A stretch of DNA of 64,000 nucleotides from Spirulina sp. CS-785/01 (GTDB lineage Bacteria; Cyanobacteriota; Cyanobacteriia; Cyanobacteriales; Spirulinaceae): positions 1-64,000 of the forward strand of contig NZ_JAQMSD010000316.1 of NCBI RefSeq assembly GCF_028330525.1, in the 5' to 3' direction. Below the pieces are notes generated by a model, which made no database searches, was not told where the DNA came from, and saw nothing but the letters and a program-made list of their open reading frames with translations. The translations under genes and the position numbers were made by a program. Positions 34,574-62,347 of this stretch are shown here, one piece after another (positions within the stretch are counted from its first letter, which is position 1; each line of letters starts with the position of its first letter).

Positions 34574-34613
34574 AGCTATCGCCTTTAGATTCAGATGTTT
34601 TCAAAGTAAGGTT
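34574..34613 (+). promoter_or_regulatory. Shared leader before the DUF6876 gene
   Basis: AGCTATCGCC (34574-34583), TTTAGATTCAGATGTTTTCA and AAGTAAGG, 30 nt to ATG 34614. It is divergent from the SLOG gene leader 39 bp away. Confidence 0.8.
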
Positions 34614-35003
34614 ATGTTAACTGAAGCGAACCTCAAACAATTTACTGGAACAACTCAATATTATCGACATTGGTTAAATTTCTGCTATACCGATGGAGTA
34701 CAATTCTTAGCAAAAGAAGGACAAGCCTACTGGTTACTAGATGCCATTGGGTCATATCAACCTCAACTCCGCAACCTTCCAAAATATCAGGCATTTCAAC
34801 TGTGGTTTTTGGTGGTCGGACACGAGCATCCGGTCATCCAGCCTCAAGCCAACTATCAAGCGGTTTTAACTTGTTGGGAAGATACTCCCATGGTCGGAGT
34901 TGAACCTGCGATTCGTCAGGATATTCACTATACTGACTTCCCCTTAGCTCAAGTCCATCTCTATTGGCAGCAGGGGGTTTTGATGTTGCCAAGCGAATAC
35001 TAA
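34614..35003 (+). CDS. DUF6876-family protein
   Basis: A 129-residue protein: TEANLKQFTGTTQYYRHWLN, CYTDGVQFLAKEGQAYWLLD, a middle ILTC-like strand (AVLTCWEDT), then YTDFPLAQVHLYWQQGVLML ending in PSEY. This matches the DUF6876 family of plasmid and phage proteins of unknown function. It is soluble with no known catalytic motif. It is divergent from the SLOG gene, carries the shared leader and is complete. Confidence 0.8.
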   Translation: MLTEANLKQFTGTTQYYRHWLNFCYTDGVQFLAKEGQAYWLLDAIGSYQPQLRNLPKYQAFQLWFLVVGHEHPVIQPQANYQAVLTCWEDTPMVGVEPAIRQDIHYTDFPLAQVHLYWQQGVLMLPSEY

Positions 35004-36016
35004 TTGATTTTCCACCCCATAGAAGATAATCCAGCTACCCTCCTCTCTCTTGGTGGGAGGGGAGGTTAAATCGGTTTTCGGGGGGTGGCCTTCTTTTAAG
35101 CATTCACCCCAACGTGAATTGCCTGTGCCTATACTTGGGTGATGGCCTCCGTTGGTGCGAAGCAATAGCAGCCCTGTCAAGGTGACAAATTTGGCAACGA
35201 GAAACCGTTTTTTAGACACTAATGATAGAAACTTGCTCCCCCTCTCCCACCCTTGGGAAAGGGGGTTGGGGGGGGAAGGGCGACTCCAAACCGATATATC
35301 CCGTTACCCACCTTGACAGGGCTGGCGAAGCAATGGCCCCCGGTGGTACTTGTGGGATGGCCCCCGGCGATACGAACTAATGGCCTCCGATGGTGCTTGT
35401 GGGATGGCCCCCGGTGGTGCGAAACAATCGCCTTTGGCTAGGTTTGTGTGGCCACCGGAGGCTATGCTTGCGTGATGCCCCTTGGTGGTACTTATGTGAT
35501 GGCCTCCGACTGTGCGAATCCGGCTGTCTATGAGACGCGCTCTATAAGGGGTTCGTTAACGGGTAGAATTTTTCCCTTACAACCTCCGACAACTATGACT
35601 TCTAAGAAATGACAGGGCAAAGAAACCCAGCTAAATTCCCCTCGATGAAAGCTTCATGGTTTGTTGTTGCCCGTTCTTGCATTGGGCGCAATCATCAAAA
35701 GATGAAGGTTTGCAAAAAAAACGGGAAATCAAAGGCGTAAGAGACAGATAGACCCGTATAATGGGAGGGACATTCAAACATTCATCCAAAAATGGAGGAT
35801 TGCCTACTGCCCACAAGATTTTTTCCCTTTAACGGGTTACGTTGTCCTATGACCGTACCCCAAACTCTTTTGGCCGATATAGAGATTAGAAAATTCCTTA
35901 CTTCCCAAAAGAGGAGAACCTACTAGGAGGCAACCTAGTAGGTTCAGAGTAAAAGAAACAGAACGTCATAGCTTGAAGGCCATGCCGTTCAACAAACAAA
36001 ATATTCTTTGCTTCCC
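35004..36016. other. 1-kb non-coding region before the replication gene
   Basis: No convincing gene. It holds a diverged HIP-type repeat array (35138-35530), a 16-bp inverted repeat CAGCCCTGTCAAGGTG (about 35168-35183) and CACCTTGACAGGGCTG (about 35310-35325), and a site GTAAGGGAAAAATT on the minus strand at 35567-35580, with a related run near 35812-35826. Its position just upstream of the CyRepA-like gene makes it a candidate origin or control region (inference). Confidence 0.55.
35138..35530. repeat. Diverged tandem array of HIP-type 23-26 bp units
   Basis: About ten imperfect units of the form GCTTGTGGGATGGCCCCCGG + TGGT or GCGAAACAATCGCCTTTGGC. They are related in reverse complement to the clean 23-bp unit at 48.64-48.70 kb, but most GATC cores have decayed to GGCC or ATGG. 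Confidence 0.65.
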
Positions 36017-39000: not shown

Positions 39001-39091
39001 CCTGGCGGGTTCGACCAGTCGCGGGTTACGCAGCCAAATTTTCGCGGCGTGGAATCGTCAGCAAACTGGGAATCCAGACCTGCACGCATAA
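36017..39091 (+). CDS. CyRepA1-like plasmid replication protein
   Basis: A 1,024-residue protein. The N-terminal ~300 residues have the DUF3854/TOPRIM-type region of CyRepA proteins: PIILTEGAKKAAALISVGYD and EFILAFDQDQKPKTRHNVEK, where the E and D-x-D positions are typical of primase-like TOPRIM folds. Then a helicase-like part: P-loop SSKGTGKTEW (about 331-340), Walker B LILDEIEQ (about 417), a motif VVLCSPTVETGISI. Such proteins start replication of cyanobacterial plasmids (family knowledge). I use ATG 36017; an in-frame TTG at 36008 exists. It has no shared leader. The C-terminal ~75 residues are serine-rich and probably disordered. Confidence 0.85.
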   Translation: MLPKKIQLGYNLTPNFSHSLVEESSHGEKTPIVIKPHDYREFKASAISDDLIALNFRSLEGEAVYENLCYALPHSERTNPGQLRTRWLKRYENASHGGWWCSGYDPLSDQAMEWGCFKPDRPIFSQTSRKLIKYEHPSKTPTRAFFLGFPQRWRALAAQTEPTPIILTEGAKKAAALISVGYDAIALPGIYNGYRAKDQQGNEIPKTLIPELKAFCQPGREFILAFDQDQKPKTRHNVEKALLITGKLLEQAQCRVSVLAWPYPEKGIDDLLVNRGTDTLEDLYQQRSPLATWELDKQADLSSLVTVRITEQYLPTTLTPPRNAQLIGLKSSKGTGKTEWLAHQIQPQTRTGGKILLVTHRTQLGIELCDRLGLDYVDFLKDSPTQGILGIGLCIDSFYAQSKKSSFNPADYEGAWLILDEIEQVLWHLLNSATCAKARTRILETLQETIRIILATGGKLLVSDADLSRLSLDFLQRLAGISLNQWIVENEYRPGLNRTAYTYSDPFELESGLFNAIAAGERCLVHCSGQKAQSTHGTQNLEKVIAQQFPEKTILRIDAETISDPDHPAYRCTFKGLNTLVPQYDVVLCSPTVETGISITVPHFHSVWVLATGTQTVEGVLQGMERYRLNAPRHIYVAQKAGFSYLAGGVTSVKQLLRTTHRTAAFHLRQLANGLKNWDEPDTENQAALMAYAQYACRHNQGFKHYRDTIYHRLKEQGYTLINQDGIQADQKSQVAYHLKNSKIRSQQERHQAIAHANCSNINLTDEPMEMTQSQRYAHEKAQLINRYGLSEDDITPEFVALDAEGMYAKLRRDYYLRINRKAVHQQDLQKIRELMGEESPSKLFKPDIVKSLQSGEMTIYDLFEIPQLIERGLNGATFTKLDFSEQWVAWANANLSEIKAVLGFLPYRDEPIRIFKQFLQTLGFSLECLGQETRNGKRVRVYQLIDTFHLDPPEQSEESFQNSGFNPSDPHSETGEGNSSQTSESDSSYSTTRHLAGSTSRGLRSQIFAAWNRQQTGNPDLHA

Positions 39092-39882: not shown

Positions 39883-41295
39883 TTAAAACGGTGGAGTGGG
39901 GTCCCGATTAATGGGGAGATCAGGAGGAGGTGGATTAGGATTGGGAGTGACTGGCATTGGTGGCAGTTGTTGGGTTTCCCCCCAATCCAATTGAGTTCGC
40001 GGTTCTAATTGTTCAAATAACTGGTGTCCTTCCGATTGAGGCAAACTGACGGGAGTAGTCAGATTGGTTAAATCCAGAGCTAATCCCACTTCTTCTGTTC
40101 CATTTTTCTTATCTGTAATAAAGCCTAACAGTCTGGGATAAGAGCGTCCGGTATAGTCTAAGAGTTCTCCGGCCAAATCGAGTAATTTTCGCCGCAGACT
40201 CAATTCAGATTCTTGAACCACTTGACTGATACTAAAATCTGGCTGTTCGGTTTCATCAGATTTGATGCCAAACACATACAGCCATTCTCCTAACTGAGTT
40301 TCTCGATTTTGTCGAATTGCCATAACGATTAAGATAGCGGCCATTAAAATCACGGGAGCAAACGTAATTAAAACATTCCATGCCGTTGTCCCAGTTCCAG
40401 TACGACCCAAAATCCGAGGTAATGCCTGTTGGGTTGCCCGAAGAAAATGCGCTCCCAAATAGCGAGCCAGTTCTGCTCCATCACTCTGAAAGAATTTAGC
40501 GGCAATGGACGCGGCGCAATGAGACAATCCTTGCAATAAGGTTGCATTCATTCCTCCCGTCCAGACGGTAATAAACCAACTGGCGATTTGAGATAATACC
40601 TCGGTGGTGACTTGAATACTAGCCCGGTGGCCTACGGGGACGGGAGCAAAATTCAGTTCTCCTCCACTGGGTAAAGATTGCGTCGGAGACTCCATTTCTT
40701 CTAAGGCTTTCCTCGCCCGATAGGTTTTGCCATAGAGTCTGCGTCTTGCTTTTCCGGCTAGGGTTTTCAGTTTTTTCAATTGGCTGCTTAACCAACTGAG
40801 GAGTGAACTTTTTTCTTGGTCATAGCGCGATCGCAAACGTTGTAGATAAACTGATGTTGGTTTCCCCCCGTCCATTGGAGGAATTTGTTCGGCTAAAACG
40901 GGTAAATTCAAGACTTCGTTATACACATTCAGCGTGCGCCGATAAAATGAAGTTTCTGATTCATTAATCTCGGTGGTCTTGAGTTTCTGGTAAGCGGCAT
41001 TCTGAAGATTAGAATATTTCTCAGAATTGTAAGCTGAGTTAATACTGTAACAAGATTCGAGAAATAATAAACTACAGGCTTTAATTAAATCTGTGAGTTC
41101 ATCTTCACCCTTCAGTAAATCCTGAAAAGGGGTTTCCGAAAAGTTTTGTAAATACTGAATTTCCGTTTGCTGAGTGAACCAAACTTGACCACTGCCAAAA
41201 GCGGAGGAAAATGTCTCACCAATCGGTAACATTTCTTTACCTAACCATGAGCTATTTTCAATTTTGTTCTGTAAGTCACTATATTGTTTTAACAT
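39883..41295 (-). CDS. Uncharacterised membrane protein with proline-rich tail
   Basis: A 470-residue protein that I do not recognise. Residues about 1-200 are soluble and helical, with an arginine/lysine-rich segment (LKTLAGKARRRLYGKTYRAR). Hydrophobic segments follow near 235-265 (VLSQIASWFITVWTGGMNA) and a clear transmembrane helix near 310-330 (FAPVILMAAILIVMAI). The C-terminus is proline-rich (PVTPNPNPPPPDLP). It has no leader motif and no obvious partner. Anchoring of a plasmid function at the membrane is conceivable but unsupported. Confidence 0.7.
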   Translation of the reverse strand: MLKQYSDLQNKIENSSWLGKEMLPIGETFSSAFGSGQVWFTQQTEIQYLQNFSETPFQDLLKGEDELTDLIKACSLLFLESCYSINSAYNSEKYSNLQNAAYQKLKTTEINESETSFYRRTLNVYNEVLNLPVLAEQIPPMDGGKPTSVYLQRLRSRYDQEKSSLLSWLSSQLKKLKTLAGKARRRLYGKTYRARKALEEMESPTQSLPSGGELNFAPVPVGHRASIQVTTEVLSQIASWFITVWTGGMNATLLQGLSHCAASIAAKFFQSDGAELARYLGAHFLRATQQALPRILGRTGTGTTAWNVLITFAPVILMAAILIVMAIRQNRETQLGEWLYVFGIKSDETEQPDFSISQVVQESELSLRRKLLDLAGELLDYTGRSYPRLLGFITDKKNGTEEVGLALDLTNLTTPVSLPQSEGHQLFEQLEPRTQLDWGETQQLPPMPVTPNPNPPPPDLPINRDPTPPF

Positions 41296-41541: not shown

Positions 41542-41583
41542 GGCTATCGCCCAAAGAGTATGGTGTTTTTTGGAGTTCAATCC
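41542..41583 (+). promoter_or_regulatory. Shared leader, cassette 1
   Basis: GGCTATCGCC (41542-41551), flanked by an extra G-C pair (GGGC-TATC-GCCC), then CAAAGAGTATGGTGTTTTTT and GGAG, 32 nt to ATG 41584. Confidence 0.85.
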
Positions 41584-41778
41584 ATGCAATTAATTGAACA
41601 AAAGTTTCAACAGTTTCAACGGGAATTAATGCTCAATGATTTAGAGTTAGTACGGTATTCTCTAGAGCGTATTGAAAAATGGTCAGAAAAGATTCAAGAT
41701 GATGAAGATTTAGCAGCAATTATGGGTGCTGTTATGACCCTCGAAGAAGTGTTGGACAAGTATCAAGGTCAGTCGTAG
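41584..41778 (+). CDS. Small helical protein (cassette 1)
   Basis: A 64-residue helical, acidic protein (LIEQKFQQFQRELMLNDLEL, VRYSLERIEKWSEKIQDDED). I chose ATG 41584 because the shared leader with GGAG ends 7 nt before it; an in-frame ATG at 41560 lies inside the leader. Function unknown. It is the first of a row of single-gene cassettes, each with a leader and mostly its own terminator; its terminator follows 26 nt after the stop. Confidence 0.7.
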   Translation: MQLIEQKFQQFQRELMLNDLELVRYSLERIEKWSEKIQDDEDLAAIMGAVMTLEEVLDKYQGQS

Positions 41779-41804
41779 TCAGTCGAGGAAACCAAAATTT
41801 ATTA

Positions 41805-41839
41805 AAGTCTCTTTTACGGAAAGTAAAGGAGACTTTTTT
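41805..41839 (+). terminator. Intrinsic terminator of cassette 1
   Basis: AGTCTCTTTTAC, loop GGAA, then GTAAAGGAGACT and six T. The T-run touches the next leader (starts at 41840). Confidence 0.88.
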
Positions 41840-41883
41840 AGCTATCGCTTCAAGATTTTGATGTTTTTGGAGTTCAAAAATTC
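41840..41883 (+). promoter_or_regulatory. Shared leader, cassette 2
   Basis: AGCTATCGCT (41840-41849), an A-T version of the stem (compensatory change), TCAAGATTTTGATGTTTTTG and GAG, 34 nt to ATG 41884. It starts directly after the previous T-run. Confidence 0.85.
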
Positions 41884-42222
41884 ATGAGTAACTTAACTTT
41901 TGCAGGTTTATCGGGAGAGATTATTCAAACTTCTCCGAATGGCAGTTTTACCGTTGTTCGATTGAGCGATCGCGTTTATATTTGCGGTAGTGCTAACAAC
42001 AAGTATAAGTGGGAAGAAAACCCTGATGAAGATTCCGGGTTTCAGGCTTTTATTACCTATGTTGGCATTCAAAATGAATCTGAATTGAACCAGTTTAAAG
42101 AGTTAGCATATCGCCAAGATGCGACTTCGGTGACTTGTCGAAGTGGTAAGCGGACGGGTTGGTCACAGGAACTACGAATTGATGGTTTACCCGCCGAAGC
42201 TGTAGCCCATTTCATCGACTAA
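41884..42222 (+). CDS. Unknown 112-residue beta-rich protein (cassette 2)
   Basis: A 112-residue protein with predominantly beta-type patterns: SGEIIQTSPNGSFTVVRLSD, RVYICGSANNKYKWEE and TSVTCRSGKRTGWSQELRID. The strand spacing might suit an OB-like fold, but no signature is decisive, so I do not assign a family. There are no membrane segments. It has its own leader and a terminator 15 nt after the stop, i.e. one complete cassette. Confidence 0.7.
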   Translation: MSNLTFAGLSGEIIQTSPNGSFTVVRLSDRVYICGSANNKYKWEENPDEDSGFQAFITYVGIQNESELNQFKELAYRQDATSVTCRSGKRTGWSQELRIDGLPAEAVAHFID

Positions 42223-42236
42223 TTAGCGTGATTTTT

Positions 42237-42269
42237 GTCCCGACTCCAATTGAGTTGGGACTTTTTTTT
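42237..42269 (+). terminator. Intrinsic terminator of cassette 2
   Basis: GTCCCGACTC, loop CAATT, GAGTTGGGAC, then eight T. Confidence 0.9.
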
Positions 42270-42288
42270 ATGCGTGTGGGGATGGCAC

Positions 42289-42328
42289 GGCTATCGCCGA
42301 AAGAGAATGATGTAAGTAGGTATCCGCC
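42289..42328 (+). promoter_or_regulatory. Shared leader, cassette 3
   Basis: GGCTATCGCC (42289-42298) with an outer C-G pair (CGGC-TATC-GCCG), GAAAGAGAATGATGTAAG, 30 nt to ATG 42329. The T-run of block 2 is replaced by AAGTAGG. Confidence 0.8.
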
Positions 42329-42793
42329 ATGATTGAATTAGAAGCCTTTGATCTCAAGAAATATACCTTAGAAAAGTGTTGCTTTAACATGACTGAAACC
42401 GTCTTTCATGTGGGTCATGAATATGGCGCAGATGAAGATGTGATGGGAAAAAGTTACTTATGGCTTCGTCGTAATGAATCTTTACAAGAAATGCGTCGTG
42501 ATTTGTGGACAGACATTCAGCGATTTCTTCCATTCATCCAATCACAGCAGACGTTCTATGTGTATGAGTCTGACGAGAAACGAGAAGTTATGAAGAAGGA
42601 TAAGAAGTTAGCCCGATCCTATGACCGATTACGGTATAAAAGCGTTCGCTTGACGCATTTGCTAATTCTCTTACTCCATTTGCGTCGGCATGGAAAAGTG
42701 AAATTGTTGTATAGCGATCGCGCCCATGCTGAGATGCTCAAGCGGTGTCTGGAATGGTTGAATCAGCAATTGGCTGACGTAACACTTTGTTAA
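42329..42793 (+). CDS. Unknown 154-residue protein (cassette 3)
   Basis: A 154-residue protein with an aspartate- and histidine-containing start (TETVFHVGHEYGADED), a helical arginine-rich middle (KKDKKLARSYDRLRYKSVRL) and a hydrophobic helix THLLILLLHL followed by LKRCLEWLNQQLAD. I do not recognise the family. It is soluble by composition except for that helix. It has its own leader and a perfect terminator 10 nt after the stop. Confidence 0.7.
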   Translation: MIELEAFDLKKYTLEKCCFNMTETVFHVGHEYGADEDVMGKSYLWLRRNESLQEMRRDLWTDIQRFLPFIQSQQTFYVYESDEKREVMKKDKKLARSYDRLRYKSVRLTHLLILLLHLRRHGKVKLLYSDRAHAEMLKRCLEWLNQQLADVTLC

Positions 42794-42802
42794 GTTGAAG
42801 TT

Positions 42803-42836
42803 AAGCACATTTCCTACGGGAAGTGTGCTTTTTTTT
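42803..42836 (+). terminator. Intrinsic terminator of cassette 3
   Basis: AAGCACATTTCC, loop TACG, then GGAAGTGTGCTT and T8. The 12-bp stem has one G-T pair. Confidence 0.9.
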
Positions 42837-43007
42837 ATCCCTACAATCCATACTGACAGGCAGATGAAAGGCTGTAAGTCAGTATAAATTGTGTCACTTT
42901 CCATCAAGGTTTTCGCCCGTCGAATAGACCGAAACTGGGCTGTTGTTGGACTGTTCCCGCAGAGACAAGAGCGAGAACGTTATCTGTGAGAAGTTGAACT
43001 GAGGAAA

Positions 43008-43051
43008 GGCTATCGCCAAAAGAGAGTGATGTTTTTTGGAGAAATCCAACC
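43008..43051 (+). promoter_or_regulatory. Shared leader, cassette 4 (reference copy)
   Basis: GGCTATCGCC (43008-43017), AAAAGAGAGTGATGTTTTTT, GGAG, AAATCCAACC, ATG 43052. 34 nt from motif to ATG. It is nearly identical to the leader of cassette 5, and so is the start of the gene. Confidence 0.9.
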
Positions 43052-43405
43052 ATGATTAATATTCCCAGTAAATCTGATAAAGAACGTTCTGTTATTCTCG
43101 ATGCTTTCCGAATCTTAGCTTGGCAACAGTATAAGCAGGATACTGGAGTTTCAGGATTAGAAGGCTATGAAACCTTTTCTCAAGAATGGAATGCTCATGA
43201 AGTTCATGATAAAACTTTTACTGAATTGAAAGATATGGCTTCTGAATTGGGGTATTCTTTGGCAGATTTGAAGAAGATTCGGACTGATTATTACCAAAGT
43301 AAAAATAATGGTATTTCCGATGACTCTGACTCGACTAACAGTATCTCTAATGGTGCATCTCAAAGTTATACTGAGAACGAAAATCTTGATGATATTCCCT
43401 TTTAG
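43052..43405 (+). CDS. Small paralogue A (cassette 4)
   Basis: A 117-residue protein. Its first ~85 residues match the cassette 5 protein closely (SKSDKERSVILDAFRILAWQ, QYKQ, SGLEGYE, LGYSLADLKKIRTDYY); it has an extra serine- and asparagine-rich tail ending in DDIPF, an acidic C-terminus that resembles those of single-strand-DNA-binding proteins (EEDDIPF type). The fold is unknown. It is preceded by the reference leader and followed by a terminator. Confidence 0.75.
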   Translation: MINIPSKSDKERSVILDAFRILAWQQYKQDTGVSGLEGYETFSQEWNAHEVHDKTFTELKDMASELGYSLADLKKIRTDYYQSKNNGISDDSDSTNSISNGASQSYTENENLDDIPF

Positions 43406-43425
43406 TTGACTGACGAATAACCCAG

Positions 43426-43458
43426 AAATCTCTAGTCTCTAGACTAGGGATTTTTTTT
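43426..43458 (+). terminator. Intrinsic terminator of cassette 4
   Basis: AAATCTCTAGTCT, CT, AGACTAGGGATTT, then T5 or more. Confidence 0.88.
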
Positions 43459-43547
43459 ATACGATAATTCGACAACTGAAATTTTGCCTAATGACTAAAG
43501 CTCCATACTGCATCAGGGTATAGTTGTGATTTCTCCAACTTAGTAAA

Positions 43548-43592
43548 GGCTATCGCCAAAAGAAAATGATGTTTTTTTGGAGAAATCCAATT
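43548..43592 (+). promoter_or_regulatory. Shared leader, cassette 5
   Basis: GGCTATCGCC (43548-43557), AAAAGAAAATGATGTTTTTT, TGGAG, AAATCCAATT, ATG 43593. One T longer than in cassette 4. Confidence 0.9.
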
Positions 43593-43850
43593 ATGATTAC
43601 AATTCCTAGCAAATCTGATAAAGAACGCTCTGTTATTCTGGATGCGTTTCGGATTCTCGCTTGGCAACAATATAAGCAAGAAAATGAGGTGTCAGGATTA
43701 GAAGGTTATGAACTGTTTGAAAGTGAATGGAAACAACATGAAGTTCACGGCTCAGATTTGACTCAGTTAACCCAGTTAGCAACTCAGTTAGGATATTCCT
43801 TACAAAACTTAAAGCAAATTCGTCAAGATTATTACGCTAAAAATCGTTAA
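43593..43850 (+). CDS. Small paralogue B (cassette 5)
   Basis: An 85-residue paralogue of the cassette 4 protein (SKSDKERSVILDAFRILAWQ identical block; ELFESEWKQHEVHG; LGYSLQNLKQIRQDYYAKNR) without the acidic tail. I use ATG 43593, 9 nt after the leader GGAG; an in-frame ATG at 43566 lies inside the leader. The duplication includes leader and terminator style, so whole cassettes duplicate as units. Confidence 0.78.
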   Translation: MITIPSKSDKERSVILDAFRILAWQQYKQENEVSGLEGYELFESEWKQHEVHGSDLTQLTQLATQLGYSLQNLKQIRQDYYAKNR

Positions 43851-43854
43851 TTCC

Positions 43855-43908
43855 AAAATCTCTAGTGTCTTGAGCTTCATCGGCTTGAGACGCTAGGGAT
43901 TTTTTTTA
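43855..43908 (+). terminator. Intrinsic terminator of cassette 5
   Basis: AATCTCTAGTGTCTTGAGC, loop TTCATC, GGCTTGAGACGCTAGGGATT, then seven or more T, with internal G-T pairs. Confidence 0.82.
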
Positions 43909-43980
43909 TAGCCGACTGTTCCCGTTTTCGCCCATTGGGAACTCTTTTCACTGGTCTTGTTTTCAATTTCAGGGTTTTCT

Positions 43981-44071
43981 GGCTATCGCCAATCGAGAAT
44001 AGGAGCAAAAAAAGACCTAGTTAAAAACTAGGTACTTTAGAACTTAGTGTGATGTTTTTTGGAGCAATAGC
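43981..44071 (+). promoter_or_regulatory. Shared leader split by a palindrome, cassette 6
   Basis: GGCTATCGCC (43981-43990), AATCGAGAAT, then about 46 nt that includes the palindrome ACCTAGTTAAAAACTAGGT (about 44016-44034), then GTGATGTTTTTTGGAGC and ATG 44072. The two conserved blocks are separated here. Confidence 0.85.
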
Positions 44072-44572
44072 ATGAAATTAACTGAAACTTTAGTCGCAGC
44101 AGTTATAGTTACTATTTTAGCATCTTTTGGCTATAATAGCCTAATTCGATTTGTGAATAAAACTCAATTAAAAGGGAGTTTAGTCACCATTAGTCAAACG
44201 GCTCGAATGAGTCGTTATAATGCCGTAGAAACTACCCCTAAAACTTTATGTTTTCGTCAAAGACAACAGGTTGAATTTACAACAATTTCGGGGAATGATT
44301 GTGAAACCGCAATAGGATGGCGATCGCTCGCTGAAGATATCAAAATTGATACAGAACATACTACCTTACGCACTGTTCGGGGAGTTGCAGGGTATGGAGG
44401 TAGTGACATTTATCGAATGAGTTGGGCGAAGACGAAGGCTGGTTTGGGTGCAAGTTGGGGCCAATTGGGAAAGATTGTCTTGCGGTCTGGACAACAACGA
44501 GGCTGTTTTGTTCTCAGTTCAATTCAAGGTGATACTGACATTCGCTTTGGAAAACAATGTCATCGGTCTTAA
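44072..44572 (+). CDS. GspH/FimT-like pseudopilin
   Basis: A 166-residue protein with a type II pseudopilin-like build: a hydrophobic N-terminal helix (about 7-30, LVAAVIVTILASFG) with E5 (KLTETL), then a GspH-like globular part ending in GQLGKIVLRSGQQRGCFVLS and a final C-pair. The usual prepilin leader (G before F-T-L-x-E) is missing, so standard PilD cleavage is doubtful; it may be inserted uncleaved or be a minor pilin variant. It was probably captured by the plasmid-like element and placed under the shared leader. Confidence 0.72.
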   Translation: MKLTETLVAAVIVTILASFGYNSLIRFVNKTQLKGSLVTISQTARMSRYNAVETTPKTLCFRQRQQVEFTTISGNDCETAIGWRSLAEDIKIDTEHTTLRTVRGVAGYGGSDIYRMSWAKTKAGLGASWGQLGKIVLRSGQQRGCFVLSSIQGDTDIRFGKQCHRS

Positions 44573-44677
44573 TTTTATATGAGAGTTCACAAACGGCAAT
44601 TTTATTCCCTAAAACACCACAATCTCAAAGGACAGTTGAAGGAAATTTTCAAACTGAAAAGGTAAGTCAACTTGGGG

Positions 44678-44718
44678 GCTATCGCCCAAAGATTGTGGTG
44701 TTTTTTGGAAAATTGACT
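44678..44718 (+). promoter_or_regulatory. Shared leader, cassette 7
   Basis: GGCTATCGCC (44678-44687) with extra G-C pair, CAAAGATTGTGGTGTTTTTT and GGA, 31 nt to ATG 44719. Confidence 0.85.
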
Positions 44719-44913
44719 ATGACGTATGTCAAGCAATGGGTTGAAGTGGGGGGAGTCCCTTATCCCGAATACGGATGTCTTGAAGTTCACCTTCCTGAAG
44801 ATGAAACCCCAGATGAACCGAATGATTTACTCGATAAATCTTTTGATGAATTAACGCCAGAAGAGTTACAAACTTTACGGAATAGTTACTTGAATCAAGA
44901 TGATGAATTTTAA
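44719..44913 (+). CDS. Small acidic protein (cassette 7)
   Basis: A 64-residue acidic protein (YVKQWVEVGGVPYPEYGCLE; EDETPDEPNDLLDKSFDELT). I use ATG 44719 next to the shared leader; longer in-frame starts upstream are inside or above the leader. The composition suggests an adaptor or small inhibitor, but there is no evidence for either. It is followed by a terminator at 44957. It has no relatives I recognise. Confidence 0.65.
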   Translation: MTYVKQWVEVGGVPYPEYGCLEVHLPEDETPDEPNDLLDKSFDELTPEELQTLRNSYLNQDDEF

Positions 44914-44956
44914 TCAATGACTTCTATTCCTCCAATAATAGGAAGTTGACCCAAAG

Positions 44957-44985
44957 AAAGACCTCCTCATGGGGGTCTTTTTTTT
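44957..44985 (+). terminator. Intrinsic terminator of cassette 7
   Basis: AAAGACCTCC, loop TCAT, GGGGGTCTTT, then T5. Confidence 0.88.
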
Positions 44986-44994
44986 GAGGTCGTT

Positions 44995-45372
44995 ATGGAT
45001 TCCAAAGTTTCGACAGGCTCAAAATGGCAAGCTAAAACGAATTTTCCCACCGCCGATTTTTGGTTAACCAATAAAGGCAGTTTAGACACGCTGGGAACTC
45101 CTTTGAAAACGTTTGAACCTTATTATATTGGCATTTTGTGTCCCCAATTCATTGTTCCAGACTATGGATTTTATCTTTTTGTCTATTTGCGATCGCAAGG
45201 TATTTGGAAACAATTAGCTGTAGGGACAACCGCTTACAAATCTTTACGAATTCGGGAGGTTCGTCGAGTGTTAGCGGATTTGTCTTTGTGGGTTGAACTG
45301 TCGGTGTGGTTCAAAACAGAAGGTCAACAAGACAAGGATGAAACTGGGCTATCGCCTCAAGAGTATAGATGA
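44995..45372 (+). CDS. Unknown 125-residue protein lacking the leader
   Basis: A 125-residue protein of unknown family (KTNFPTADFWLTNKGSLDTL; EPYYIGILCPQFIVPDYGFY; RSQGIWKQLAVGTTAYK). It starts 10 nt after a terminator T-run with GAGGT as ribosome site, and has no RGCTATCGCY motif. Its last codons (GLSPQEYR) are themselves the leader of the next cassette (motif 45347-45356), so coding and regulatory constraints overlap. Perhaps read through from upstream. Confidence 0.65.
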   Translation: MDSKVSTGSKWQAKTNFPTADFWLTNKGSLDTLGTPLKTFEPYYIGILCPQFIVPDYGFYLFVYLRSQGIWKQLAVGTTAYKSLRIREVRRVLADLSLWVELSVWFKTEGQQDKDETGLSPQEYR

Positions 45373-45388
45373 TTTTGAGGATTTGAAT
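45347..45388 (+). promoter_or_regulatory. Shared leader, cassette 8 (inside a gene end)
   Basis: GGCTATCGCC (45347-45356), TCAAGAGTATAGATGATTTT and GAGG, 32 nt to ATG 45389. It lies in the 3' codons of the previous gene. Confidence 0.8.
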
Positions 45389-45586
45389 ATGCCCACTGAA
45401 CAATTAGAACAATTGCTCCAATCTCTGAGTTCTGTGTATTGGAATATGGACTACTATGAATTTCTTCAACGAACGGGATTTCGGGATGATCCTTATGCGT
45501 TAGAAAAGTTTAAAACCTTTCAACAAATGTATCAGTTGATGACCCAATTTGATTCCGAAACGTTGCAGAAATTGTTATCTGCTTAA
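45389..45586 (+). CDS. Small helical protein (cassette 8)
   Basis: A 65-residue helical protein (MPTEQLEQLLQSLSSVYWNM; YALEKFKTFQQMYQLMTQF; ETLQKLLSA). I use ATG 45389, next to the leader. No known family, no membrane segment. It has its own terminator 7 nt after the stop. The next gene, without leader motif, begins 58 nt later. Confidence 0.68.
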   Translation: MPTEQLEQLLQSLSSVYWNMDYYEFLQRTGFRDDPYALEKFKTFQQMYQLMTQFDSETLQKLLSA

Positions 45587-45592
45587 TTTCTG

Positions 45593-45617
45593 AAGGGAGG
45601 TTAATCCTCCCTTTTTT
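45593..45617 (+). terminator. Intrinsic terminator of cassette 8
   Basis: GGGAGG, loop TTAAT, CCTCCC, then six T. Confidence 0.88.
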
Positions 45618-45643
45618 GTGAATAGATTGTTTTGGAGAGAGAA

Positions 45644-46111
45644 ATGGAATATTTACAACAACTAATTCAACTGCGTCAACAAATTCGCCAACTGGAAGAC
45701 AAAATGAAAGCTGTTCAAGAGTTAGCGGTTATGGAAGCCTTAGATTTGTTACAACAACAGCAGACTTCAACACAGGGGAAACCCAATAAAATGGCTTTGG
45801 ATAATTCCGAAGCACGGGTAATTGTGGCGTTTAAAACTCGGTTTGTTCCTGACCGAGACGATACCCAGTTATCTCGGTTAGCCGATGATTTGAACTTGAA
45901 GCGATCGCAATTAATGGAGAAAAAGCGATCGCAATTACAATCCATTACCCTAGAAGAACAGAAACTCCAAGAACAACTCAATCAACTTAACGCCAAGCGC
46001 GATAAATTACTCAATCCGAAGTCTCTTAAATTGCTCAAAATTCGTTATGAACAACGTCGTCAAGAACTCAGTTATCAAGAACCTCAATTACGCATTCAGT
46101 TGAAAGAATAA
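45644..46111 (+). CDS. Coiled-coil protein lacking the first leader block
   Basis: A 155-residue, glutamine- and leucine-rich coiled coil (YLQQLIQLRQQIRQLEDKMK; LEEQKLQEQLNQLNAKRDKL; LKIRYEQRRQELSYQEPQLR). ATG 45644 is preceded by GATTGTTTTGGAGAGAG, i.e. block 2 of the shared leader only; no CTATCG motif is seen. Function unknown; possibly a scaffolding or structural protein. Two HIP1 octamers lie in the coding frame. Confidence 0.7.
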   Translation: MEYLQQLIQLRQQIRQLEDKMKAVQELAVMEALDLLQQQQTSTQGKPNKMALDNSEARVIVAFKTRFVPDRDDTQLSRLADDLNLKRSQLMEKKRSQLQSITLEEQKLQEQLNQLNAKRDKLLNPKSLKLLKIRYEQRRQELSYQEPQLRIQLKE

Positions 46112-46116
46112 TCATG

Positions 46117-46192
46117 AGCTATCGCTGATTGAGTGTAATGGCTTATCTTCATTTCACCCTAAGTCCCCTGACCATTCAGGGGACTTTTTTTT
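46117..46192 (+). ncRNA. Leader plus terminator without a gene: candidate small RNA
   Basis: AGCTATCGCT (46117-46126, A-T stem version) and GATTGAGTGTAATGGC are followed, without a credible gene, by a perfect terminator: AAGTCCCCTGA, loop, TCAGGGGACTT and T8 (46161-46192). A transcript from the leader would be about 50-60 nt. It may be a relic of a lost cassette or a regulatory RNA carrying the leader hairpin. Confidence 0.5.
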
Positions 46193-46194
46193 AG

Positions 46195-46238
46195 GGCTAT
46201 CGCCAACTGAGTCCAGTTGTTTTAAGAAAGCTAGTCCA
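46195..46238 (+). promoter_or_regulatory. Shared leader, cassette 9
   Basis: GGCTATCGCC (46195-46204), AACTGAGTCCAGTTGTTTTA and AG, 34 nt to ATG 46239. It begins 3 nt after a T-run. Block 2 is degraded. Confidence 0.8.
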
Positions 46239-46691
46239 ATGGAACAAAGAAGATATCGGTTTAATCGCAAATTCGGAAAAGTGTATTTAGAAACTCCATC
46301 GGGATTACAAGACCTTGGCAGTGAATTTTCCATGATTATTTTAGCGGCCACTGACCCGAAACCAGCCAAACTATTTGAACATTTAGCGTATCAAGAGTGG
46401 GTGCAATTATGCTTTCTGGATTCCCAAGGAAATTGGGGATATGCACTTTTAGGAAGTGGCCTCACCAATGCGTTATTCTCTTGGTTACAATATCGCCGTT
46501 TTCTAGAACAGCAACAGATTGAATTATCCAGTGTGATTACCACTCTCAGCTTCGTTCAAATTGGAGGACTTCATCAGTGGTATGATTTTGAGTTTACGGC
46601 ACAACAAGGGAAACCTGGATTAGCTAAACGAATGACAAGATTAATTAATAATCCTCCTTTTCCCTTTACTGATCCTACTTTGAGTTTATAA
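46239..46691 (+). CDS. Unknown 150-residue protein (cassette 9)
   Basis: A 150-residue protein of unknown family: RRYRFNRKFGKVYLETPSGL, QDLGSEFSMIILAATDPKPA, YALLGSGLTNALFSWLQYRR and GKPGLAKRMTRLINNPPFPF. Mixed alpha/beta character; no catalytic motif recognised. Complete with leader and terminator. It may belong with the other accessory proteins of the element. Confidence 0.7.
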   Translation: MEQRRYRFNRKFGKVYLETPSGLQDLGSEFSMIILAATDPKPAKLFEHLAYQEWVQLCFLDSQGNWGYALLGSGLTNALFSWLQYRRFLEQQQIELSSVITTLSFVQIGGLHQWYDFEFTAQQGKPGLAKRMTRLINNPPFPFTDPTLSL

Positions 46692-46712
46692 TTTTTTCAA
46701 CTCCAAATAATT

Positions 46713-46744
46713 AAAGATTCAATCGTGAGATTGGGTCTTTTTTT
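46713..46744 (+). terminator. Intrinsic terminator of cassette 9
   Basis: AAAGATTCAATC, loop GTGA, GATTGGGTCTTT, then T4. Confidence 0.85.
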
Positions 46745-46747
46745 ATT

Positions 46748-46787
46748 GGCTATCGCCTCTAAGATTTTGCTGATTTTAAAGAATACT
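46748..46787 (+). promoter_or_regulatory. Shared leader, cassette 10
   Basis: GGCTATCGCC (46748-46757), TCTAAGATTTTGCTGATTTT and AAAG, 30 nt to ATG 46788. Three nucleotides separate it from the preceding T-run. Confidence 0.82.
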
Positions 46788-47180
46788 ATGAATAAAGTGG
46801 AGAAAAAAATTAATCGAATTATACAGCAACAAAATAAAACTTTGGTTCAAATTTTAAACTTTCAGGAAACTGACCGGGGTGATGAATATGAAATTGTTTA
46901 TCTTGATGGCGATAAGACGACTAAAGTGGGAATATTAATTCAACATTTTGGAGGCAGAACCGGAGTGAATTGGATATGGGAAGAAGATTTTGAAGAATTT
47001 TTGCAAGAATGTCAAGAGATCAGACTCACCATTCAAAAATTTAAAGAGCAATTGCAGCGTTTAAAAGACCCATCTATTGCTGTTGACGACAAAGAATTGT
47101 CTGCAATTCTTGCGTCTATGTGTATTTATCATTCCGAAAAACTGGTGATTAAGATATTAAAACATGAATTTATGCCTTAA
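46788..47180 (+). CDS. Unknown 130-residue protein (cassette 10)
   Basis: A 130-residue acidic protein (MNKVEKKINRIIQQQNKTLV; DRGDEYEIVYLDGDKTTKVG; FEEFLQECQEIRLTIQKFKE). Helices flank a short beta region. No family recognised. Start ATG 46788 follows the leader. The AT content is higher than in its neighbours. It is followed by a bulky terminator at 47208. Confidence 0.68.
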   Translation: MNKVEKKINRIIQQQNKTLVQILNFQETDRGDEYEIVYLDGDKTTKVGILIQHFGGRTGVNWIWEEDFEEFLQECQEIRLTIQKFKEQLQRLKDPSIAVDDKELSAILASMCIYHSEKLVIKILKHEFMP

Positions 47181-47207
47181 TAAAATTGGCATTGTGCAGA
47201 TTTTGTC

Positions 47208-47244
47208 ATCCCGCAGAAAATTATTTTTTTGCGGGATATTTTTA
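47208..47244 (+). terminator. Intrinsic terminator of cassette 10
   Basis: ATCCCGCA, 14-nt AT loop, TGCGGGAT, then ATTTTT. The loop is larger than usual. Confidence 0.7.
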
Positions 47245-47353
47245 AAAACTTATTAAAATTTTAGAGTAATATAATTTTAATAAATTAAACAAATTTTGTA
47301 TAATAGTTTAGAATTTTTTGATATTAAACTCAAAATTTAAAGATAAAAAGAGG

Positions 47354-47394
47354 GGCTATCGCCTAGAGAGTTTGGTTTTTGTAACAAGGATATT
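47354..47394 (+). promoter_or_regulatory. Shared leader, cassette 11
   Basis: GGCTATCGCC (47354-47363), TAGAGAGTTTGGTTTTTGTA and ACAAGG, 31 nt to ATG 47395. Upstream lies 110 bp of very AT-rich DNA. Confidence 0.82.
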
Positions 47395-48589: not shown

Positions 48590-48740
48590 AGGCGATTTTC
48601 GCACCGCAAACCAGCGATCGCTTCGTACCCTCAGAGGCGATTGCTTCGCACAGCCGGAGGCGATCGCTTCGCACAGCCGGAGGCGATCGCTTCCCACAGC
48701 CGGAGGCGATTACGTAGCGTCTCCATCGGAGAATCGTTTT
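48590..48740. repeat. Tandem 23-bp HIP-type repeat array
   Basis: Exact 23-bp period in GGCGATTGCTTCGCACAGCC + GGA (48636-48658), GGCGATCGCTTCGCACAGCC + GGA (48659-48681) and GGCGATCGCTTCCCACAGCC + GGA (48682-48704), with diverged units on both sides. The first of these units is identical to the copy inserted into the PIN gene at 10444-10466. Confidence 0.9.
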
Positions 48741-49187: not shown

Positions 49188-49227
49188 AGCTATCGCCGGG
49201 GGAGTACGATGTTATCTGTGAGAAACC
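49188..49227 (+). promoter_or_regulatory. Shared leader before the DUF5131 gene
   Basis: AGCTATCGCC (49188-49197), GGGGGAGTACGATGTTATCT, GTGAG, 30 nt to ATG 49228. Last copy on the plus strand. Confidence 0.8.
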
Positions 49228-51241: not shown

Positions 51242-53851
51242 ATGACAACAACATTTAAAAATAATATCTGGGTTGAAGACAAATCAATGGGCAGTATTTC
51301 CACTTTAACCGAGTGGAAAGTCTGGGATTGTTATGAAAAACAATGGTCTTTAGCACCGCCTGTGGTGTTACGCAATGTGATGTTAGCCGCCAACCATCCC
51401 AAGCGATTGTTTTGTATTGGTCAAATCAGTCCAGAGGAAACCAATCCAGATCATCTTAAACCTTTTAAACCCAAGGACGGAGAACGACCCTTTTTTCTCG
51501 ATTTAGCGAGTAACAGTCGCAATGATGGACGATTCACTTTTGCTGAAGATAGTACCATTGGTAAATTGTATTATGGGGAATCCGATGAAGACCAATGGAA
51601 ACGCATTATTTATGGGTCAATTCTTCACACCGGATGCAAACAGTTAATTTATAACACCATTAATTATGCCATTGTAGATGATGAACGAGTCAATCCTGAT
51701 ACGGGGGCATTAGAAGATGACCCCACCAATCACTATCATTGGGATACTGGGGACTCACACGGGAAAGTGAGTCGAATTTTAGCCGAAATGCTCCGTCTTC
51801 CCACCACCGAAGAAGATAAACCTTCCCCCAATAATCCCGTTCAATTTCGAGCCTCCCTTCATCAAGAATGGGTCGCTAAAGGCACAGTGGCATGGAATCC
51901 TGATCTCGACAACCATGACTTAGATATGGTGATTCCTTTATCCTGTTTGAAAGGGAATAAACCGGCCTTGGGGAATTACACCGGGAAGTTATTAATTGGA
52001 ACAGTCCATGAAGCGCAGGAACGGCGCACTAAACCCGGCTGGCAATTTTTCATGTGGTTTAAGTGGGAAACCCTCGAACAAGACAAAATTATCAGCCGAC
52101 TGGAAAAACGCTGTCAGAAACTCCGAGACGCATGGAATGATATTCGTGCTTTGGCCAATATCCTCCGCATCGACCAAGAAGAAGCCGAACAGGAGTTAAG
52201 CGATAATCCCGATAAACTACAATCGGTGGCCGAATACGAAAACCTGATGGTGCGGATTATTCGAGCCGATAAAAATGGCCTGTTATTATTGCATCCTTAT
52301 GTAGTACGACGAGTACAAGAACGACTCGCTAGTGTTTGGCTCAATTTAGCTAAAGCGGCTGGCGTGCGCTTTTACTCACTTATGGCCATGCCCGATGAAT
52401 ATTTTGCCGAGTGGTGGGAACAAGGGGCAAGATTCTTTTGTGCGCCAGACCTCCCCGAAGGCGAATATATTGTGTTTACCAGCCCCATGCGCCATTGGGG
52501 AGATGTCCAACTCTGGTGGAATAAGCACGTGGGTTTATTTAGACACGCCAACGCCACTGGAGTCATTGTCTCTTGTCGGGATCAGCTTTTAGATTTAGGA
52601 CGAGATACCGATGGGGATTTTTTGCAACTGATTCGCAGTCAAACTTATCCGGCTTTGGCTGAGGCCATTAAAACCTTTGATGACCCGCCCCAAGTGGAAA
52701 AACTCCCGAAAATCCCCCGGACGGGTTCATTGGCTCAAGTTGCTGTTAACTCCATGCGAGATATAACGGGAATTGTGGCCAGTTTGGCCGGGAAAGCCAA
52801 AGCCATTGGTGCAGAGGAGGTGGTTTTAGAAATTCCCCCCGGTGGGAAACAAACCGAACCCAAGGAAATGCGGATTATTGACTTTCTTTCTCAAGAACTA
52901 CAAATTGCGGTAGATAGTCTCAAATCGGCATATCCGAATAATCATAATGGCTTGAATGCCGTCCGAGATTTTCTGAACCAACAAGGGGCGGATATTCCTT
53001 GGTTAGCTGATTTTAAACATCCCGACTGTTATCGCACTCGACCTTGTAAAGTCGTCCCCGATGCCCAAGATACGGTGTCTCGGATTGTGAAATTAGTCAA
53101 TAGTTATTGGCGATCGCCTGATCTCAAAGTCGATTCTTCCCCCAAAAGTTACGAAAACGTCCTCTTTATTCAACCGCACCACCACTTTGACCGCTTTCAG
53201 GAACAGTACGCGCTCACCACCCGCGACGAATACCGAGCCGCCATGCAAAAAGCCATTCAGCATAAAGAAGCCAACCAAGGAGATACCCGTCAAATTCGAC
53301 AAGTGGCAGAACGGTATAAAACCCTTAAAATTAGTATATATGAACTAACGTCTCCCGATACCGGCCAACGATATACCGCCGATAGTTGGGTGGCGGCCTT
53401 TTGGGCAGTGTCTCACCGGGCTAAAACCGGAGATGCAGGATTAGTGTTTATGATGTTCGGAGACGAAATTGTGGAAGAATTGAGTCGTTATGAACCCCCG
53501 AAAAAACAAGTGATTACCATTTATGCCGTTCAACATGGCAAATGGTCAACGCCTGAAACTCATCCGTGGCGCGGTCAAACTGTACAAGTGCGAGGTTACA
53601 TGATGGAGTACAAAAATAAACAATATTTAGCTCTTGAAATGAAATGGCCCAACGCCAAACGACAATTCGGGTGGCATCATTTAGGATTAGTGGGTCAACA
53701 ATCTCAAGCGGCCTTAATTCCTGGCATGACCAAAACCATGCTCATTTATGCCACTCGCTTTAAAAAAGGTAAAACCACAGAAGTCAAATTATTTGATACT
53801 GACATGACCGACCAAGACATTATGCCCCATCTTCCCTTAATGATAGTTTAA
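51242..53851 (+). CDS. Candidate single-subunit double-psi-barrel RNA polymerase
   Basis: An 869-residue protein. Key block: FTSPMRHWGDV (S414-V422) followed 32 residues later by DTDGD (455-459). This spacing and the D-x-DGD metal site match the second barrel of QDE-1-type cellular RNA-dependent RNA polymerases and the phage polymerase YonO ([NS]-P-x-x-h-x-x-D, then G-x-DxDGD). An upstream MVIPLSCLKGNKP with K237 may be the conserved Lys region of the first barrel. A basic and helical linker lies at about 275-400. The C-terminal ~170 residues look beta-rich (VITIYAVQHGKWSTPETHPW). I use ATG 51242. It could transcribe DNA or copy RNA; no annotation transfer was possible here. Confidence 0.7.
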   Translation: MTTTFKNNIWVEDKSMGSISTLTEWKVWDCYEKQWSLAPPVVLRNVMLAANHPKRLFCIGQISPEETNPDHLKPFKPKDGERPFFLDLASNSRNDGRFTFAEDSTIGKLYYGESDEDQWKRIIYGSILHTGCKQLIYNTINYAIVDDERVNPDTGALEDDPTNHYHWDTGDSHGKVSRILAEMLRLPTTEEDKPSPNNPVQFRASLHQEWVAKGTVAWNPDLDNHDLDMVIPLSCLKGNKPALGNYTGKLLIGTVHEAQERRTKPGWQFFMWFKWETLEQDKIISRLEKRCQKLRDAWNDIRALANILRIDQEEAEQELSDNPDKLQSVAEYENLMVRIIRADKNGLLLLHPYVVRRVQERLASVWLNLAKAAGVRFYSLMAMPDEYFAEWWEQGARFFCAPDLPEGEYIVFTSPMRHWGDVQLWWNKHVGLFRHANATGVIVSCRDQLLDLGRDTDGDFLQLIRSQTYPALAEAIKTFDDPPQVEKLPKIPRTGSLAQVAVNSMRDITGIVASLAGKAKAIGAEEVVLEIPPGGKQTEPKEMRIIDFLSQELQIAVDSLKSAYPNNHNGLNAVRDFLNQQGADIPWLADFKHPDCYRTRPCKVVPDAQDTVSRIVKLVNSYWRSPDLKVDSSPKSYENVLFIQPHHHFDRFQEQYALTTRDEYRAAMQKAIQHKEANQGDTRQIRQVAERYKTLKISIYELTSPDTGQRYTADSWVAAFWAVSHRAKTGDAGLVFMMFGDEIVEELSRYEPPKKQVITIYAVQHGKWSTPETHPWRGQTVQVRGYMMEYKNKQYLALEMKWPNAKRQFGWHHLGLVGQQSQAALIPGMTKTMLIYATRFKKGKTTEVKLFDTDMTDQDIMPHLPLMIV

Positions 53852-54243: not shown

Positions 54244-54903
54244 ATGGATTCAGAATTTATTCTGCAATTAGCCACAGCAACGGGGTACAAACAAGAAACG
54301 GTTCGAGAAATTTTGGAAAGTTTCAGAAATCAACTCGCTCAATGGATTCGTCAAGATAAAGAATTACGGTGGTTAGGCTTTGGAGAATTTAGTTTAAAAT
54401 TCTTACCTCCCCGGCCAGGACGAAATCCCAGAACCGGGGAAACCATTCAAGTGGCTGCTAAATTTAAACCCAAATTCAAATTTTTCCCCACTTTTGTCCA
54501 AGATTGTCAACCTTCCGACTTAAACCCCGAAACTCAAACAAAAGCTTCTTCTTCGTCGTCGGCAGAATCGGATCAAGCGAACAACCGGAATGGCGACTCC
54601 CCCAACCCCCAAAAACACGGGAGTCAATCTCAAGATGTTCCTCCCACCCCAACCTCGGAGTCTGCTACTTCTCTGGCCACTCCGGCGACTCCTCCTCCTG
54701 TTCCGGCGGAATTAATGGCCCAAAAACCCGAAACCGTTTGGTATATGGCAGGGAACGCTCCGACCGAATTTCATCCAATTAAAGAAAGTGAGTTAGCGGG
54801 GAAAATTAATCCCGAAACGCCGTTGTGGAGTGAAACCACTGGTTGGAAGTTAGCGAAAGATATTCCTCAATTACATTATCTTTTTGTGCCAGTGCAAGGT
54901 TAA
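54244..54903 (+). CDS. HU-like DNA-binding protein fused to a GYF-like domain
   Basis: A 219-residue protein. Residues 1-85 are an HU/IHF-type domain: ATGYKQETVREILESFRNQL, LRWLGFGEFSLKFLPPRPGR, NPRTGETIQVAAKFKPKFKF, with the GRNPRTGE DNA-binding signature. A serine/proline-rich linker (about 95-160) leads to a GYF_2-like segment (WYMAGNAPTEFHPIKESELA, TPLWSETTGWKLAKDIPQL). HU bends DNA; GYF-type domains bind proline-rich peptides. It may organise the element or act with the nearby polymerase (inference). The linker is unusually long for an HU protein. No shared leader is visible. Confidence 0.82.
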   Translation: MDSEFILQLATATGYKQETVREILESFRNQLAQWIRQDKELRWLGFGEFSLKFLPPRPGRNPRTGETIQVAAKFKPKFKFFPTFVQDCQPSDLNPETQTKASSSSSAESDQANNRNGDSPNPQKHGSQSQDVPPTPTSESATSLATPATPPPVPAELMAQKPETVWYMAGNAPTEFHPIKESELAGKINPETPLWSETTGWKLAKDIPQLHYLFVPVQG

Positions 54904-61417: not shown

Positions 61418-62347
61418 ATGCTTGTCCTGACCCGTTCGCTACAACTGCAAGCTCCTCTCCCTCTCTCCCGCCATCCGGCCCGGGTCTACTTGCGATCGCT
61501 GGCTCTGGGGTCGCGTCCCACGATGGAGCAGAGTTTAAATAGGATCGCTTCTTTGTTAGGGTATGATTTGGATACTTTAGATTGGGCAGCCCTCACGTAT
61601 CAACACACCGCGGCCATCCAAGCGGCTTTATTAGAACAGTACGCCCCGGCGACGGCCAATAAGATGATTTGTGCGTTGCGTCGGGTTTTATCTGAGGCTT
61701 ACAAATTAGAACTGATGAGTGCAGACCAGTACGAAACGGCCATTGCCCTCCCTCCCATTAAAGACCGCCGTAAGTTGAGAGGCCGCGCCCTCAGTCTTGC
61801 TGAAATTGCTGCATTAATGAAGGCTTGCGACACCGACCCCGCCCCCCAAGGTCTTCGAGATGCGGCGTTGGTGGCCATCCTTCGGGGGACCGGACTCCGA
61901 CGGGCGGAGGTGGTGAAACTGATGCTCAAAGATTTACAGTTTGACACCGGAGCATTAGAGATCAACCAAGGGAAAGGAGGAAAAGATAGGATGGTGTATT
62001 TGCCAGAAAGCGCGATCGCCTATGTACGAGACTGGTTAAAGTTGAGAGGGAATTCCCCCGGTGCATTATTGTGTCCCGTGAGGAAAGGAGGCCGGATTCA
62101 CATTAAACACCTTACGCCCCAAGCGGTGTTGTGGATATTGCAGCAGAGAGCGCGGCAGGCCGGAGTCGAATCTTTTTCTCCCCACGATTTTCGACGGACG
62201 TTTTGTTCGGATTTATTGGATGCCGGGGTTGATATTGTCACCGTGCAGAAGTTAGCGGGTCACTCCAGTCCCTCGACGACGGCTAAGTATGACCGGAGGG
62301 GAGAGGAAGTGAAACGTCAGGCCGTGCAACGATTAGAGTTATCGTAA
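61418..62347 (+). CDS. Tyrosine recombinase/integrase (XerC/D-like)
   Basis: A 309-residue tyrosine recombinase. The N-terminal SAM-like DNA-binding domain (about 10-105) is followed by the catalytic domain with the full R-K-H-R-H-Y set: R in GTGLRRAEVV (about 158), K in GKGGKDRMVYL, H-x2-R in HDFRRTF (about 256-259), H in GHSSPST, nucleophile Y291. ATG 61418. Its stop codon (62345-62347) lies inside the 14-bp site GTAAGGGAAATATT, as expected for an attachment site beside its integrase gene (inference). The gene end overlaps that of the opposing glycosyltransferase by 9 nt. Confidence 0.93.
   Translation: MLVLTRSLQLQAPLPLSRHPARVYLRSLALGSRPTMEQSLNRIASLLGYDLDTLDWAALTYQHTAAIQAALLEQYAPATANKMICALRRVLSEAYKLELMSADQYETAIALPPIKDRRKLRGRALSLAEIAALMKACDTDPAPQGLRDAALVAILRGTGLRRAEVVKLMLKDLQFDTGALEINQGKGGKDRMVYLPESAIAYVRDWLKLRGNSPGALLCPVRKGGRIHIKHLTPQAVLWILQQRARQAGVESFSPHDFRRTFCSDLLDAGVDIVTVQKLAGHSSPSTTAKYDRRGEEVKRQAVQRLELS

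Follow-up and report, generated by a model that had tools for sequence, protein, structure and literature searches.

A single-chain two-barrel RNA polymerase candidate encoded by cyanobacterial plasmids and integrated elements, with a linked motif that may serve as its promoter

The window analyzed here, a 64,000-nucleotide stretch of the Spirulina sp. CS-785/01 genome, encodes an 869-aa protein (positions 51242 to 53851, + strand) that represents a family of single-chain two-barrel polymerases, predicted to be DNA-dependent RNA polymerases, of cyanobacterial plasmids and integrated elements. A short motif, repeated in front of a set of small genes in the same element, is probably the promoter of this polymerase. 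In the proposed scheme, the host RNA polymerase would first make the element polymerase, its partner, an HU protein, and a replication protein. The element polymerase would then transcribe a separate set of small element genes, each from a short promoter of its own, GCTAYCGC-N10-TGNTGTTTT, with the start codon about 40 nt downstream. The first block of this promoter is a tiny inverted repeat that might be recognized as an extruded DNA hairpin, and a 470- to 550-aa protein encoded beside the polymerase would be its likely specificity or anchoring partner. Transcription of a small-gene regulon from such hairpin-containing promoters is the reading favored here, with moderate confidence.

The polymerase frame is open from the ATG at 51242 to 53851. 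An alternative start, TTG, lies 12 nt upstream; the ATG is the better-supported choice because it is favored by the relatives. A sequence-only reading of this protein had pointed to the motifs S414-P-M-R-H-W-G-D-V422 and D455-T-D457-G-D459 and to a conserved-looking lysine, K237 (in SCLKGNKP), all of which are found at these places. In an alignment of 60 to 61 relatives, K213, G214, T215, K237, D455, G458, and D459 are invariant, as are K490, G510, Q554, D558, and K561, and D457 is kept in 60 of 61 sequences. Since the key residues are invariant among the relatives, the motifs are not a matter of chance. They include the D-x-DGD metal-binding triad of barrel 2 (D455/D457/D459) and, in barrel 1, two invariant lysines (K213 and K237), as expected of two-barrel RNA polymerases. 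The proposed S-P-x-x-H-x-x-D motif stands only in part: P415 is near-invariant (60 of 61) and is the sole position so conserved in the wider family, with D421 near-invariant in the closer relatives only.

The two-barrel fold proposed in that reading is borne out by profile and structure searches. A search of all PDB sequences with the family profile yields four matches, every one of them a eukaryotic-type two-barrel RdRP (E-values of 0.0065 and 0.007 for RDR2 and 1.1 for QDE-1). These matches align the D-x-DGD block and, in RDR2, additionally the barrel-1 "GDxHGKIS...QFR" block. For the AlphaFold2 model built from the family alignment (pLDDT 90.3, pTM 0.86), Foldseek retrieves from the PDB, in this order, RDR2, QDE-1, and the phage proteins P74 gp62, P32 gp64, crAss phi14:2, and P23-45 gp96. 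At E ≤ 0.001 there are 22 PDB matches, without exception two-barrel polymerases, and the alignments, of about 650 to 1000 columns, span both barrels. In a viral library, the best match comes from a phage and bears the name RNA-dependent RNA polymerase. No Pfam family, the PF05183 model included, matches the protein at E ≤ 10, and comparison with PHROGs returns a single family of unknown function. The two-barrel (double-psi β-barrel) fold is virtually certain, and the protein is very probably an active polymerase, which presumably uses a DNA template. It can be placed with confidence in the two-barrel superfamily, as a YonO-like protein in kind, and is not filed under PF05183.

Relatives of this polymerase are found in 99 of the 391 related cyanobacterial genomes covered by an order-wide search and on 58 plasmids in PLSDB. 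The view that such enzymes are rare in bacteria, expressed in the sequence-only reading, is contradicted for this cyanobacterial group; its description of the polymerase as element-encoded agrees with the presence of relatives on plasmids and close to integrases. Scanned with a pattern, 84,980 species genomes yield 80 loci, all cyanobacterial by title except for one MAG labeled Flavobacterium, which is probably mis-binned. Among viral sequences, IMG/VR contains three relatives, with none detected in a GenBank-derived phage collection (tblastn) or in a single-protein viral scan. The family includes a short form of about 870 to 900 aa, 45 to 59% identical and present in 24 of the 391 genomes, and a distant long form, 22 to 35% identical, with ORFs mostly of 1,000 to 1,900 aa. 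Conjugative plasmids are among the carriers of the long form, and a link to conjugation is possible. In the plasmids NC_019772 and AP018308 (loci L161 and L162), the long-form genes have a TraC-like ATPase operon or relaxase genes nearby; no promoter motif comparable to the one described below is found at these two loci.

Comparison with 17 other polymerase loci reveals a shared core. The polymerase and its partner are found in 17 of 17 loci, the 112-aa and 117-aa proteins, with conservation nearly equal to that of the polymerase, in 16, and the HU protein in 14. In the window, the partner is a 470-aa helical protein with one hydrophobic segment, encoded on the - strand (39883 to 41295). Across the loci it has 470 to 550 aa and is predicted to be helical; in most of them its gene directly adjoins the start of the polymerase gene, whereas in the window the two lie apart. 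A fold search with the partner gave no match, and its likely role as a specificity or anchoring factor is therefore a guess. The polymerase gene is adjoined by that of an HU-family DNA-binding protein with a GYF-like C terminus (54244 to 54903, + strand). A DUF3854/replication-type protein (36008 to 39091, + strand; no motif upstream) also matches phage replication PHROGs and is likely the element's own replication protein. A tyrosine integrase (61418 to 62347, + strand) is encoded on the right side of the element, and other genes around the polymerase code for a cytosine methylase, nucleases, and a Calx-beta protein. The product of the gene at 43052 to 43405, found in 16 of 17 loci, has an acidic DDIPF/DxIPY C terminus, as in single-stranded DNA-binding proteins; neither this protein nor those of related array genes are recognized by Pfam. 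No recognizable phage structural genes are seen among the element proteins scanned, and Rfam has no match within the window. A search for att-type repeats at the element ends gave a sole 14-nt match (35569/61355), which is not convincing. Tandem 23-nt repeats containing GCGATCGC (HIP1-like) are located between array genes at 48614 to 48728.

A repeat search reveals an intergenic repeat in the small-gene array at 41.5 to 49.2 kb. The motif, GCTATCGC-N10-TGNTGTT, is located about 40 nt before the small-gene starts and is present in 13 to 14 copies, degenerate ones included; unsupervised de novo EM recovers it without a seed. The sequence GGCTATCGCC has ten exact copies in the window, all on the + strand within 5.8 kb (41542 to 47354), and just one more in the rest of the 5.4-Mb genome. 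With one mismatch allowed, the window has 20 copies versus 1.9 expected by chance.

The motif sites listed here are on the + strand. The one at 34575 to 34600, consisting of block 1 (the candidate hairpin), a spacer, and block 2, lies 39 nt before a DUF6876 gene at 34614. Those that follow are at 41543 to 41569 (small gene with an in-frame ATG at 41584), 41841 to 41867 (gene start at 41884; 112 aa, in 16 of 17 related loci), 42290 to 42315 (42329), 43009 to 43035 (43052, the 117-aa protein with the SSB-like DDIPF tail), and 43549 to 43575 (a paralogue of the 43052 gene, in-frame ATG at 43593). Farther along are the sites at 44678 to 44704 (gene start at 44719), 45348 to 45374 (45389), 46196 to 46221 (46239), 46749 to 46775 (46788), 47355 to 47380 (DUF5895 gene, 47395), and 49189 to 49214 (DUF5131 gene, 49228). 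The sites at 41841 and 46749 directly follow a terminator-like T-run, and the one at 46196 directly follows a terminator-like stem-loop with a T-run. One site is split (43982 to 44062; gene start at 44072), with block 1 at 43982, block 2 at about 44046, and a roughly 60-nt insertion that contains the inverted repeat GACCTAG...CTAGGTAC. This site is a candidate for a naturally broken or modified promoter.

The motif is also found in other polymerase elements, with 16 copies in Anabaena WA102, 21 in G185, 14 in G102, and 8 in the Planktothrix-type G132; the consensus given above derives from 152 to 185 sites. At these loci it is on the same strand as the gene array, and across polymerase loci the distance from its first base to the start codon peaks at 39 nt. 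In several elements the motif escaped an exact 9-mer search, and some of these, though not all, were recovered by EM and variant patterns. The variants include GCTATCGC, GCTACCGC, GCTTCGC (by EM, in two sister elements), TGTTTTCAC (by EM, in the sister pair C. aponinum and G139), and ACTATCGT/CCTATCGG, found by pattern in Synechocystis B12. Their distribution agrees with the branching of the polymerase tree. The output of EM on whole Phormidium and Synechocystis plasmids was not interpretable. A clear motif is absent from the stretches read at loci G104, G246, and L184 (from G261), and no such motif is seen in 40-odd neighborhoods of distant long-form polymerases.

Linkage of the motif to the polymerase was assessed by searching the 391 genomes of the order-wide search for the full motif pattern. 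At least three full motifs are present in 10 genomes, and each of the 10 belongs to the 24 that carry a short-form polymerase (Fisher P = 9.6e-14); most copies share a contig with the polymerase. Anabaena WA102 has a second motif cluster, located in the chromosome next to a broken copy of the polymerase gene. This region (L228, 3,757,001 to 3,777,000) is an integrated remnant of the element, in which the partner gene is intact and several copies of the motif remain. Viral contigs contain 85 single motif matches and no arrays, which were taken as chance or isolated sites. The motif is not found before the genes for the polymerase (0 of 18), the partner (0 of 18), HU (0 of 15), or the replication protein (0 of 5), and is usually present before the 112-aa, 117-aa, DUF6876, and DUF5895 genes. 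This distribution would correspond to an early/late cascade layout, as with phage-encoded polymerases.

The main rival to the promoter reading is that the motif is an operator bound by a regulator of the element, with the array transcribed by the host RNA polymerase and the element polymerase doing something else; we consider this a possible but distinctly less probable explanation. Candidate binders would be the partner, the 112-aa or 117-aa protein, or a recombinase-like repressor. Several small proteins that could act as such binders are as widely shared as the polymerase, inverted repeats such as block 1 are common in operators, and a shared repressor or activator could also account for the motif-polymerase linkage. 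A precedent is found in SPbeta, where the intergenic SPBRE repeats are operators bound by the repressor MrpR and not YonO promoters (PMC10516654); these repeats were accordingly dropped as a precedent for a YonO promoter. However, no host -10 box is found at a fixed place near 152 motif sites. T-runs ahead of the motif are 8 times as frequent as random, and several terminators abut it, which leaves just some 45 nt up to the start codon and, in some cases, no room for another promoter. In addition, the third base pair of block 1 covaries within elements in different Watson-Crick combinations, unlike a fixed operator half-site. We judge it probable that the motif is the promoter of the element polymerase.

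The ends of block 1 are self-complementary, with GC/GC around TAYC, AC/GT, CC/GG, GT/AC around TTTC, or GC/GC around TTC, and the combinations GC/GC, AC/GT, CC/GG, and GT/AC differ between elements. The third pair, next outward, is paired in 42 of 101 non-redundant sites (20.2 expected), with C-G in 19 (5.3 expected) and G-C in 15 (5.4 expected), in a set in which sites of related elements share descent. C-G and G-C are thus each about threefold in excess, with G at +8 occurring solely opposite C, and this holds under shuffling within elements as well; T-T is the commonest unpaired class. Pairs beyond the third have no covariation support. The stem comprises 2 to 3 bp and the loop mostly 4 nt. 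Recognition of block 1 as a DNA hairpin is a tentative proposal. Alternatively, the motif might be an RNA leader (a stabilizer or translation signal) in mRNAs made by the host RNA polymerase, or an RNA signal for RdRP-type initiation, which we regard as unlikely. A leader would be consistent with the constant spacing to the start codon, and the nearest solved relatives of the polymerase are RNA-dependent, but G-T/T-G combinations, tolerable in RNA as wobble pairs, are depleted at the covarying pair (10 versus 19.2 expected), and the RNA reading is ranked lower for this reason. Terminators directly upstream of the motif and the lack of any conserved upstream sequence that could serve as its promoter also argue against a leader. 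A role of the polymerase as the element's primase or replication polymerase, with motif arrays marking replication or priming sites, is very improbable: HU, SSB-like tails, and replication proteins are encoded by the elements, but replication signals need neither the single orientation of the motifs nor their fixed distance before start codons.

Among the closest known systems is YonO, the DNA-dependent RNA polymerase of phage late genes; YonO-like proteins have already been placed in cyanobacteria (PMC5467207). The YonO promoter was unknown as of 2017. Like the element polymerase, YonO of SPbeta and phi3T is a single-chain two-barrel protein; both have a mass of about 100 kDa and a D-x-DGD site. 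In phi3T, yonO is followed by the HU gene yonN, and the element has the same polymerase-HU order, with an HU gene next to the polymerase as in SPbeta-like phages. An hhalign comparison with a single YonO sequence, that of phi3T, is colinear over both barrels (E = 0.026), although the sequence similarity is barely detectable. The late genes transcribed by YonO form one long operon (PMC8270828), whereas the element has many small genes, each with the common motif.

The best fold and profile matches are QDE-1 and RDR2 (PF05183), which share with the element polymerase the barrel-1 "DGxGKIS...QFR" and barrel-2 "P...D/N...DxDGD" blocks. However, there is no Pfam match, identity in the fold alignment is about 12 to 14%, and the setting is a bacterial plasmid in contrast to the eukaryotic one of QDE-1 and RDR2. 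The two-barrel polymerases of phages P74 (gp62), P32 (gp64), P23-45 (gp96), and crAss phi14:2 (Foldseek E-values of 2e-9 to 5e-5) are phage encoded, some of them virion packaged, and less similar to the element polymerase than the RdRPs are.

The promoter of the N4 virion RNA polymerase is a small GC hairpin with some fixed bases and others that need only to pair (PMC4496689). The element motif likewise has a small GC hairpin upstream of the gene, and its inverted-repeat arms covary as base pairs, as expected for an N4-type promoter. It lacks the 5- to 7-bp stem and 3-nt loop of the N4 type: stems in N4 can reach 7 bp, whereas the shorter, 2- to 3-bp stem of the element is followed 10 nt on by the second block, TGNTGTT. 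The N4 virion polymerase is T7-like and unrelated in fold to the element polymerase. It is a speculative possibility that a plasmid two-barrel polymerase of the RdRP/multisubunit RNA polymerase fold reads extruded mini-hairpin promoters and runs a plasmid-wide regulon, convergently with the N4 enzyme and with polymerase and promoter variants coevolving throughout the cyanobacteria.

This polymerase class is already known, its cyanobacterial members having been mentioned with YonO; the motif beside the polymerase is the new part. In a literature search that did not take in the main older work, no description of the plasmid family, its partner protein, or its promoter motif was found. Single-chain two-barrel polymerases stand between the multisubunit RNA polymerases of cells and the polymerases of eukaryotic RNAi, and the element enzyme is of the type used by plants and fungi in RNA silencing. 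The bacterial examples studied so far come from phages. With a polymerase, a candidate promoter, target genes, and variants that follow the polymerase tree, promoter recognition in this class becomes directly testable. If the proposed scheme is true, plasmids, and not phages alone, would run their own transcription, and the element would provide a new orthogonal polymerase-promoter pair.
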